Below the pieces are notes generated by a model, which was given only the letters and a program-made list of their open reading frames with translations, made no database searches and was not told the DNA's origin. A program made the position numbers and the translations under genes. A DNA stretch of 64,000 nt from Rhizobium indicum (lineage in GTDB: Bacteria; Pseudomonadota; Alphaproteobacteria; Rhizobiales; Rhizobiaceae), in NCBI RefSeq assembly GCF_005862305.2, contig NZ_CP054021.1, positions 558,001 to 622,000 on the forward strand, read 5' to 3'. Every line of letters begins with the position of its first letter. The first letter of the stretch is position 1. Of the stretch, positions 29,287 to 32,718 are shown piece after piece.

Positions 29287-29371
<85 letters not shown>

Positions 29372-31215: not shown

Positions 31216-31430
31216 GCTCAACCCCTCGATTTCCGTAACGCCGACTGCGGCGCTGCGGCTCACGCCGTTATAGACGCAGCACGGGTGTCCGCAAACGCTC
31301 TTGCGACAAATATACAAGTTCCTCATTGGTCTAAATAGTATCGAGTGTTAACCGGCCGCTAACGTCAGAAGCGCTAATATAAGCCTATGGACGGAGAGGT
31401 ATGCGATCCTTGCATATCCCCCATGAATTT

Positions 31431-31465
31431 ATTGCACTGCACAATAGTCATTAGTCATACTATTG
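31431..31465 (+). promoter_or_regulatory. LysR-type box and -10 element in front of the NfeR1-like sRNA
   Basis: ATTGCACTGCACAAT (31431-31445) has inverted ATTG/CAAT ends (T-N11-A pattern). A -10-like CTATTG follows at 31460-31465, exactly 29 bp from box start to -10, the same spacing as at 32435/32464. Transcription would start near 31472. Confidence 0.6.
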
Positions 31466-31471
31466 ATCACA

Positions 31472-31660
31472 CATCGAAGCACGGGGATGGCGCCCCGGCC
31501 CGGCATCAGCCGGACGCCCGCGGATGCTTTGTCCGTGACGAGATTCGCAGTTGCGCACTCCTCCTCCCAGCGCGCTGCGATAGACTGGCAACACTCCTCC
31601 TCCCAGTTGTCAGTCACCATAACACGCCCGCCGGATCCTCCCCCGGCGGGCGTTTTTGTT
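31472..31660 (+). ncRNA. nfeR1: Anti-Shine-Dalgarno sRNA of the alpha-r14 / NfeR1 type
   Basis: Three hairpins expose CU-rich loops. The first has ACTCCTCCTCCCA (31557-31569) between CGCAG..GCGC and GCGC..CTGCG; the second has the same 13 bases (31593-31605) between CTGGCAAC and GTTGTCAG; the third is the terminator with TCCTCCCCC in its loop. Repeated CCUCCUCCC loops are the hallmark of the rhizobial NfeR1 (alpha-r14) sRNA, which pairs with ribosome binding sites of transporter mRNAs. That RNA is about 123 nt in S. meliloti, which would place the 5' end near 31537; a start near 31472 is suggested by the promoter, so a longer primary transcript or processing is possible. The exact 5' end is unknown. 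Confidence 0.82.
31625..31660 (+). terminator. Rho-independent terminator of the NfeR1-like sRNA
   Basis: CGCCCGCCGG (31625-31634), loop ATCCTCCC, CCGGCGGGCG (31643-31652), then TTTTTGTT. The loop itself carries a third anti-SD-like motif. Confidence 0.92.
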
Positions 31661-32087
31661 TAGCCAAAGCTTCATTAAAGCCTTGGCAATGAGAGGATTT
31701 TCGTCGCGTGGCGCCATCAATGCCGCATTGTCGTCACACCGCCCCACCAACCCTGCGAAGAGATGGGCGGCTTCCGATCCGAAACAGAACGCCTCTTTAC
31801 AGCGGATGGACGGGCGGAACCATCGGAGCAAGCAGCGTTTTCCGGAGTGGCACCCCCTTCGTCCCTCCAAACCAAACTGCTTTTTCAAAAGTCATTCTGC
31901 CTATTCGTTGACCAAAAAGCGGTAAGTCTGCGTCAAATACCTCTTGAGCATTGCATAACTCGCATAGGTGATCTGAAAACTTGGCTGTTTTAGTCTTTCG
32001 CGTCGCAACATATATTCCAGTCATCAAATAGAGGTCAGCGCCGATCGGTGGCTGCTGGCGGATGAAACCCTCGGAAAGGGGCTTAAC
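31661..32087. other. Intergenic stretch without a recognised gene
   Basis: Short frames here (for example minus 31797-32204 and plus 31656-31925) have no family-like features. The sequence is more A/T-rich than the flanks. CATATA at 32009-32014 may be the -10 of the DUF1127 gene that follows, but no convincing -35 is seen. ATTGCATAACTCGCA at 31950 shares only the left half of the LysR-type box. Confidence 0.5.
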
Positions 32088-32234
32088 ATGAACTTCTCTC
32101 GCTCTTTCAATAACTGGCGCAAGTATCGTCAGACCGTCACGGAACTCGGCCGCATGACCAACCGCGAATTGCACGATCTCGGCATCGACCGTTCGGACAT
32201 CCATCGTGTTGCCCGTGAGGCTTCTGCCCGCTAA
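32088..32234 (+). CDS. DUF1127 microprotein (first copy)
   Basis: 48 aa (MNFSRSFNNWRKYRQTVTEL...). The DUF1127 pattern is clear: basic amphipathic N-terminus with W-R-x-Y-R, then ELGRMTNRELHDLGIDRSDI (L-x-x-L-x-D-I/L-G-I-x-R-x-D-I). Such small proteins in Rhizobiales affect RNA handling, phosphate or carbon metabolism and are often under stress or LysR-type control. GGAAAGGGG lies about 8 bp before the ATG. A terminator follows within 50 bp, so it is a one-gene unit. Confidence 0.88.
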   Translation: MNFSRSFNNWRKYRQTVTELGRMTNRELHDLGIDRSDIHRVAREASAR

Positions 32235-32281
32235 TTCAGGCGGTTGACTGCTCCTTACGAGCAGATCGTCTTTGATTGAAA

Positions 32282-32310
32282 CGCCCGCTGTCTCCCACAG
32301 CGGGCGTTTT
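32282..32310 (+). terminator. Rho-independent terminator after the first DUF1127 gene
   Basis: CGCCCGCTGT (32282-32291), loop CTCCC, ACAGCGGGCG (32297-32306), then TTTT. Confidence 0.9.
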
Positions 32311-32434
32311 CATTTGTCTGCATGCGGCTGCCGCGGCGGTAGCAGGTTTTTCCGTCTCATTAGCCCGCTCAAAAAATATCCGCTGCTTAATTGAAGAGCA
32401 TCATCGTGCACAATTGCATGGCAGACGCCTTTTA

Positions 32435-32469
32435 TTTGCACTGCACAATTGGACGGTTCTCGCCTATAT
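32435..32469 (+). promoter_or_regulatory. LysR-type box and -10 element in front of the second DUF1127 gene
   Basis: TTTGCACTGCACAAT (32435-32449) differs at one base from the box before the sRNA. CTATAT at 32464-32469 matches the rhizobial -10, 29 bp from the box start, the same as at 31431. A second half-site, GTGCACAATT (32406-32415), lies 35 bp upstream of CTGCACAATT. Confidence 0.65.
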
Positions 32470-32528: not shown

Positions 32529-32672
32529 ATGAACCCGATCCGCATTGCAAGAAGCTGGCTCAGCTACCGTCGTACGCTCAATGAACTCGGCGGCCTTTCC
32601 AACCAGACCCTGTCCGATATCGGCGTCAGCCGCTACGACATCCGGAATATCGCATCCCGCTCGTTCCGCTAA
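32529..32672 (+). CDS. DUF1127 microprotein (second copy)
   Basis: 47 aa (MNPIRIARSWLSYRRTLNEL...). It shares the DUF1127 layout with the copy at 32088: W-x-x-Y-R, NELGGLSNQTLSDIGVSRYDI. AGGAAG lies 6 bp before the ATG. It is preceded by a LysR-type box with a good -10 and followed by a terminator, so it is a separately regulated unit. The two copies share about half their residues and are ancient rather than recent paralogues. Confidence 0.9.
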   Translation: MNPIRIARSWLSYRRTLNELGGLSNQTLSDIGVSRYDIRNIASRSFR

Positions 32673-32694: not shown

Positions 32695-32718
32695 ACGGCG
32701 CCCCAGGGCGCCGTTTTT
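32695..32718 (+). terminator. Rho-independent terminator after the second DUF1127 gene
   Basis: ACGGCGCC (32695-32702), loop CCAG, GGCGCCGT (32707-32714), T-run to 32718. It isolates trmFO from the DUF1127 transcript. Confidence 0.9.

Follow-up and report, generated by a model that had tools for sequence, protein, structure and literature searches.

The window, by which we mean the whole 64,000-nucleotide stretch of Rhizobium indicum DNA analysed here, carries on its forward strand a gene for a small RNA of the ar14 family, followed by two genes for DUF1127 proteins of 48 and 47 amino acids, each of the three preceded by a putative promoter (P1, P2 and P3; Table 1). A GidA-family gene (PF01134), which from its place and sequence we take to be trmFO, lies downstream of both DUF1127 genes, and a DUF2157 gene is found upstream of the locus on the opposite strand. 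The 15-bp boxes of P1 and P3 differ by a single base, and each one starts 29 bp before the start of its -10 hexamer (31431 to 31460 and 32435 to 32464), with a gap of 14 bp in both cases, confirming the near-identical boxes at equal spacing that a preliminary description of this DNA had pointed out. The products named in that description were also found where expected, an ar14 sRNA (RF02344) after the first box and a 47-aa DUF1127 protein (PF06568) after the second. Its two box promoters were therefore retained, but the middle promoter and the 48-aa gene had been overlooked, and our proposal is of three LsrB-type promoters. A scan for sigma-70 consensus promoters found none, against 1.2 expected. 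Stems are present after the sRNA and after the 48-aa gene, so the transcription units look separate; a further hairpin is visible 3' of the 47-aa gene (32695-32713), absent from the list of terminators given by the scan.

Table 1. Features of the ar14-DUF1127 locus, in window positions.
Feature	Position	Strand	Basis
P1 dyad TGCGATCCTTGCAT (TGC-N7-GCAT) 5' of the box, putative site of LsrB recognition, centre about -66	31402..31415	+	Conservation; same position as the LsrB motif mapped at nfeR1 of S. meliloti
P1 box ATTGCACTGCACAAT, putative site of activation, overlaps the -35 region	31431..31445	+	
P1 -10 hexamer CTATTG	31460..31465	+	
Predicted 5' leader of the sRNA, three small hairpins	31474..31539	+	Start placed by the -10 hexamer and the distance to the dyad
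ar14 (cuckoo/NfeR1 family) sRNA core, three aSD loops	31540..31658	+	Rfam RF02344
Intrinsic terminator of the sRNA	31624..31653	+	Terminator scan
Putative P2 operator: TGC-N7-GCAT dyad (31952-31965) overlapping the GCAT-N3-TG-N3-T consensus (31962-31974)	31952..31974	+	
P2 -10 region CATATAT	32009..32015	+	
48-aa DUF1127 protein gene	32088..32234	+	PF06568
Terminator-like hairpin 3' of the 48-aa gene	32278..32310	+	
P3 upstream dyad TGCACAATTGCAT (TGC-N6-GCAT)	32407..32419	+	
P3 box TTTGCACTGCACAAT	32435..32449	+	
P3 -10 hexamer CTATAT	32464..32469	+	
47-aa DUF1127 protein gene	32529..32672	+	PF06568

The sRNA core matched the Rfam ar14 model with 111.6 bits (gathering threshold, 58.8), and three covarying stems with anti-Shine-Dalgarno (aSD) loops were recognised in it from 20 sequences. 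Transcription is predicted to start near position 31474, judging from the -10 hexamer and the dyad spacing, which would place a leader of about 66 nt before the core. A strict NfeR1 orthologue would start at the ar14 core and have no box in its promoter, whereas this gene has a box and a start predicted upstream of the core; the earlier label of NfeR1-like sRNA thus held as regards the ar14 family, but not as regards the predicted extra 5' leader and the box promoter, and we predict that the RNA is a leader-bearing ar14/cuckoo variant. The whole predicted RNA (leader, core and terminator) folded strongly, with a z of -5.67. When 17 divergent leaders were compared (L157, L158 and L160 having been left out), both partners had changed in 9 of the 14 pairs of the three leader hairpins, whereas shuffles gave 4.3 such pairs and none of 500 scored as high, in a structure derived from this same alignment; slid versions of it scored lower. 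The consensus fold of the whole RNA from 20 representatives contained no leader hairpins, because two of these loci have lost most of the leader. A tRNA gene (29290-29371, minus strand) is located some 2.5 kb or less from the ar14 gene of the window, and one was found in the same range of ar14 on seven of the eight box-bearing contigs checked with Rfam (L206, L210, L214, L220, L223, L251 and L265; none on L229), hinting at an old shared neighbourhood.

The 48-aa and 47-aa proteins scored 59.1 and 49.6 bits with PF06568 (cut-off, 23.3). A short DUF1127 gene beside a cuckoo/CcsR-like sRNA is the arrangement that defines CIN1, and this is what the window contains; the linkage of sRNA and DUF1127 genes has been reported under that name (PMC10253847, citing work on cuckoo RNAs). 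The ccaF1-CcsR locus of Rhodobacter sphaeroides described in the same report likewise has a short DUF1127 gene beside aSD stem-loop sRNAs, but there they are said to form a single RpoH-driven operon cut by RNase E, whereas in the window a separate LsrB-type promoter is proposed for each gene. The SDPs (short DUF1127 proteins) of Agrobacterium tumefaciens (PMC12501420) also have 47-48 aa, and binding to the kinase PhoR was shown for them; in contrast to the window, the accessible text of that report mentions neither an operator nor a linkage to sRNAs.

The box has a companion, a TGC-N6/7-GCAT dyad located 30 bp upstream of it. Its conservation in the genus was followed in 70 oriented loci (L104-L173; 30 + 40) taken from 120 genomes searched and chosen for good P1-ar14 matches, so that counts of 70 out of 70 are biased. 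In all 70 picked loci, the order of the ar14, 48-aa and 47-aa genes and the P1 box were kept; the DUF2157 gene was seen in 69, the P1 -10 hexamer read CTATTT in 39, and the P1 dyad (TGC-N7-GCAT) was placed exactly at -30 from the box in 56. The P3 dyad (TGC-N6-GCAT) and box were at a fixed distance in every one of the 65 unique rows of the P3 alignment. Mean identity in the dyad half-sites was 0.96 at P1 (69 unique rows) and 1.00 at P3, and in the box 0.94 and 0.99, as compared with 0.73 and 0.63 in the spacer between the box and the -10 hexamer. The dyad spacer was free to vary at P1 (0.44); at P3 it was also conserved (0.92), making the footprint of P3 less clear-cut than those of P1 and P2. 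A distance of 30 bp is close to three helical turns, which fits the recognition and activation sites of LysR regulators. From its sequence, the 15-bp box is best described as the promoter-proximal half of a putative two-part operator of which the dyad is the other half.

Conservation was also evaluated in 14 of the 120 genomes searched, those whose best P1-ar14 match was weakest (E > 1e-24). With P3 and the 47-aa gene as query, the DUF1127 pair was found in 13 of these 14 outlier genomes and was not found in G003, which is 82% complete. All 13 loci kept the P2 and P3 dyads as well as the P3 box, which was altered at no more than one or two places and began with A in six of them, and all had CTATAT or TTATAT at the position of the P3 -10 hexamer. 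An aSD array (two or more CTCCTCC upstream) was present in only 3 of the 13, from which it follows that the operators of the microprotein genes are steadier than their sRNA partner. Among 27 listed ar14 places in 6 of the 14 outlier genomes, a subset of the copies, one was a window-type locus (in G025), and six others followed a DUF1127 gene of the 48-aa type and had no box. Universal conservation of the arrangement in the genus was consequently not borne out, the sRNA being often degenerate in these genomes.

The middle promoter has the dyad and no box. In the picked genus rows, TGC-N7-GCAT was present at P2 in 70/70 and GCAT.GGTG in 69/70, and the distance from the start of the dyad to CATATAT was 57 bp in 52, 56 bp in 15 and 71 bp in 3 of the 70. 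P2 also contains an exact match to the published LsrB/VtlR consensus GCAT-N3-TG-N3-T (PMC7486931, PMC8844928); no exact full-length match was found at P1 or P3. The dyad of P2 together with this perfect consensus therefore suggests that three LsrB-type promoters may lie in a row. Across this genome, the consensus, with a background frequency of 0.017 per 200 nt, was detected upstream of 4 of the 7 ar14 genes that exceed the gathering score, of 3 of the 4 suhB/ar15-type genes and of 2 of the 3 genes for DUF1127 proteins of 47-48 aa, and it was absent upstream of an eighth ar14 match below the gathering score, all five other DUF1127 genes and the mmgR-type gene. A composite of both elements, TGC-N7-GCATR-N2-TG-N3-T, matched the genome exactly nine times, whereas its control had no match. 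Four of the nine were counted as promoters, of one suhB/ar15-type gene, one ar14 gene and two short DUF1127 genes; four of the remaining five were inside long open frames and one had no recognisable -10, although an open-frame test does not discriminate on its own, because two of the four counted promoters (L350 and L351) are also in long open frames. A second sRNA-DUF1127 pair of this genome was noticed at G000:C3:158814-159435 (L086); its DUF1127 gene encodes 48 aa, has both the dyad and the full consensus, and is followed by an ar14 sRNA having its own LsrB consensus match.

In the 7.53-Mb genome, the 13-mer TTGCACTGCACAA common to both boxes occurred exactly at three places, the two boxes of the window and one other, which precedes by 98 bp a suhB-type match scored by Rfam as ar15/AbcR with 107.1 bits. 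This third place (G000:C2:759368-759544, L103) belongs to an ar15 (AbcR-type) sRNA outside the lsrB locus, and there the 13-mer is fused to GCAT-N3-TG-N3-T. At up to two mismatches there were 118 matches to TTGCACTGCACAA, against 60 for the reversed pattern. The box followed by N15 and CTAT was found exactly only at the two promoters of the window, and at up to three mismatches it had 12 matches against 11 in the control, with no excess beyond the two window sites. On these grounds we rejected the idea that the box by itself marks out a wide regulon in the genome: with its -10 it has two exact occurrences and no more, and inexact matches are as frequent in the control. Flanks and ORFs of at least 150 aa were inspected at all 12 one-mismatch box sites, one of which adjoins an mmgR-type sRNA. 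Two one-mismatch boxes (L006 and L007; G000:C1:1855682-1855713, minus strand) are located 19 bp apart, in an apparently intergenic place, before the sequence TTATATAAG.

The pattern box-N15-YTAT, with at most one mismatch, had 79 matches in 59 of 199 genomes of the family, against 6 for the reversed pattern, and in 21 of 30 family loci taken from the 59 genomes a DUF1127 start or an aSD array, the latter called from repeated CTCCTCC, was located just downstream of the box; neither was found downstream in the other nine (L176, L177, L178, L183, L197, L198, L201, L202 and L204). A scan of GTDB contigs for box-N15-CTATAT gave at least 118 stretches, 80 of which were taken as loci. Among the matches listed in these contigs (85 sites in 80 loci), 47 sites were before a DUF1127 gene and 34 before an aSD sRNA, by the same CTCCTCC heuristic; 81 of the 85 thus preceded one of the two outputs and four neither, namely L228 and L236, both from Ahrensia, and L250 and L262, where the locus ends 136 and 75 nt after the box. 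Rfam confirmed ar14 in all eight box-bearing loci submitted. Both gene types were present within 2.5 kb in 63 of the 80 loci, again among the matches listed, a count made with a stricter DUF1127 cut-off, under which L219 and L230, counted as DUF1127 among the 85 sites, have none. Ten of the 17 loci without both types end within 800 nt on the relevant side; L225, L253 and L254 had enough flanking room, yet no aSD array was found in them. The dyad was at -29 to -31 from the box in 39 of the 47 DUF1127 promoters and 32 of the 34 sRNA promoters among the matches listed. Across this genome, the 199 family genomes and the GTDB loci, then, the box was not scattered without a spacing preference, although the genomes searched are related and its occurrences are therefore not independent events.

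A gene for LsrB (HTH_1, LysR_substrate; best PDB sequence match, 9hh1) is present in the genome, where it adjoins two tandem suhB/AbcR-type genes and trxB, the latter named from its sequence. An lsrB match was found in 196 of the 199 family genomes, which makes its presence nearly useless as a test; G173, one of the three without it, has a box match that precedes neither output. In Sinorhizobium meliloti, LsrB is reported to bind and activate the nfeR1 promoter through TGCA-N6-GCAT at -72 to -60, and NtrC to bind TGC-N11-GCA around -116 to -101, nfeR1 answering also to nitrogen through NtrC (PMC10746234). One of two tandem ar14 copies of S. meliloti 4H41 (C9:69153), counted from its Rfam start, has TGCA-N6-GCAT at -71 and the NtrC motif at -115, each no more than 1 nt off its published position, and it has no box; because of these two elements we took it as nfeR1. 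The mapped LsrB site hence corresponds to the dyad 30 bp upstream and not to the box, which had been proposed as the LysR-type site. The nfeR1 promoter, the one LsrB promoter to have been dissected, resembles P1 in the distance between its LysR-type dyad and the -10, in its ar14 product and in the DUF1127 ORFs nearby, and differs from it in lacking the box and the long leader and in having an NtrC site (LsrB-activated and NtrC-repressed; PMC10746234). Its tandem copy 272 bp upstream (C9:68881) is like P1, with a dyad, a box 30 bp further on, a -10 and a long leader, and DUF1127 ORFs adjoin the pair (L223). S. meliloti has six copies of the nfeR1 family, of which, according to a review, northern blots reliably detect only one (PMC7143759), so the box-bearing copy there may be weak or silent.

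Much of what surrounds this arrangement has been published: the linkage of sRNA and DUF1127 genes, the control of nfeR1 by LsrB, and the control of DUF1127 genes by VtlR in Brucella (PMC12595884). A conserved stretch of 29 nt upstream of NfeR1 homologues had also been reported earlier, as retold in PMC10746234. The VtlR regulon of Brucella and Agrobacterium (PMC12595884, PMC7486931) shares with the window a LysR regulator activating an AbcR sRNA and DUF1127 genes and the consensus GCAT-N3-TG-N3-T; however, the sRNAs named in the accessible text of these reports are AbcR1/AbcR2 and VrsA, none of them called ar14, and the dyad-box operator is not described there. In the openly accessible literature we found no paper joining sRNA and DUF1127 genes through one shared operator. 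The earlier idea of a compact LsrB/VtlR-type regulon is thus favoured by the sequence in that both reported kinds of output are present, but not in its use of the box as the LsrB site, and the metabolite signal suggested with it gave way to redox/ROS, the signal reported for LsrB, no metabolite ligand being named in the accessible text of those articles (PMC8844928, PMC11975290).

Taking together the anatomy and spacing of the locus, its conservation, its association with both gene types and the presence of lsrB, we infer binding and activation by LsrB, its two-site mode, the start sites and the functions of the outputs, and we consider it probable (roughly three chances in four) that the locus is a module of three promoters for LsrB, a LysR regulator of the VtlR type, in a cuckoo-RNA/DUF1127 cluster of the CIN1 type. 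In this model the dyad (TGC-N6/7-GCAT) near -66 would serve an LsrB tetramer as recognition site, and at P1 and P3 the tetramer would also occupy the TTGCACTGCACAA box near -36 as an activation site, three helical turns away. The box overlaps what would be a poor -35 element, and LsrB placed there could recruit RNA polymerase to the -10. P1 would yield the leader-bearing ar14 sRNA, whose aSD loops should let it silence many mRNAs, for transport and other functions, in the way reported for NfeR1, and P2 and P3 would yield one arginine-rich DUF1127 microprotein each; a single state of the regulator, redox according to reports elsewhere, may raise all three outputs.

The dyad without a box at P2 and at nfeR1 of S. 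meliloti, and the poor fit of the box to GCAT-N3-TG-N3-T, could also mean that LsrB uses the dyad only and that a different regulator binds the box, so that P1 and P3 integrate two inputs. We regard this as unlikely, given that 71 of the 81 named sites among the matches listed have the dyad together with the box, always 29-31 bp away, and that a box-like TGCAYTGCACAA forms part of two suhB/ar15-type promoters matching the LsrB consensus (L101 and L103). It is still harder to believe that the box is just an unusual -35 region under strong constraint, contacted by no activator: it does overlap the expected -35 position, and the sigma-70 scan came out empty, but the conservation spans at least 10 bases, with the box well above the spacer at both P1 and P3, which goes beyond the needs of a hexamer. 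That the boxes match by chance, as the 12 matches against 11 at three mismatches in this genome might suggest, is refuted by the box in 70/70 picked genus loci, the 79 matches against 6 in the family and the 81 of 85 named sites, among the matches listed, before the same two gene types.

The module of three LsrB-type promoters would join in one DNA logic three facts published separately, that is, LsrB with nfeR1, VtlR with DUF1127 genes, and cuckoo RNAs adjacent to DUF1127 genes, and its short signature of fixed spacing singles out sRNA and DUF1127 genes across the relatives of rhizobia. It also predicts that ar14 copies with both box and leader form LsrB targets separate from nfeR1. NfeR1 is independent of Hfq, and whether it is helped by some RNA chaperone, and by which, has been stated as an open question (PMC10746234), for which co-regulated neighbouring microproteins are a pointer that can now be tested directly. 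The reported binding partners of DUF1127 proteins are PhoR in A. tumefaciens (PMC12501420) and RNA in Rhodobacter, where CcaF1 is reported to act on the CcsR RNAs (PMC10253847). By analogy with the latter, the two co-induced DUF1127 microproteins might be the missing RNA partners of the Hfq-independent ar14, binding the leader-bearing precursor and helping to trim or deliver it, with the shared operator keeping RNA and protein in step; we offer this as a speculative and rather doubtful suggestion.

Finally, in the two Ahrensia loci (L228 and L236) the dyad, box and -10 were found before an ORF of 51 aa with a weak match to DUF3563 (21.7 and 19.7 bits, below the cut-off of 26.9), and this ORF may represent a further, third type of microprotein under such a promoter.
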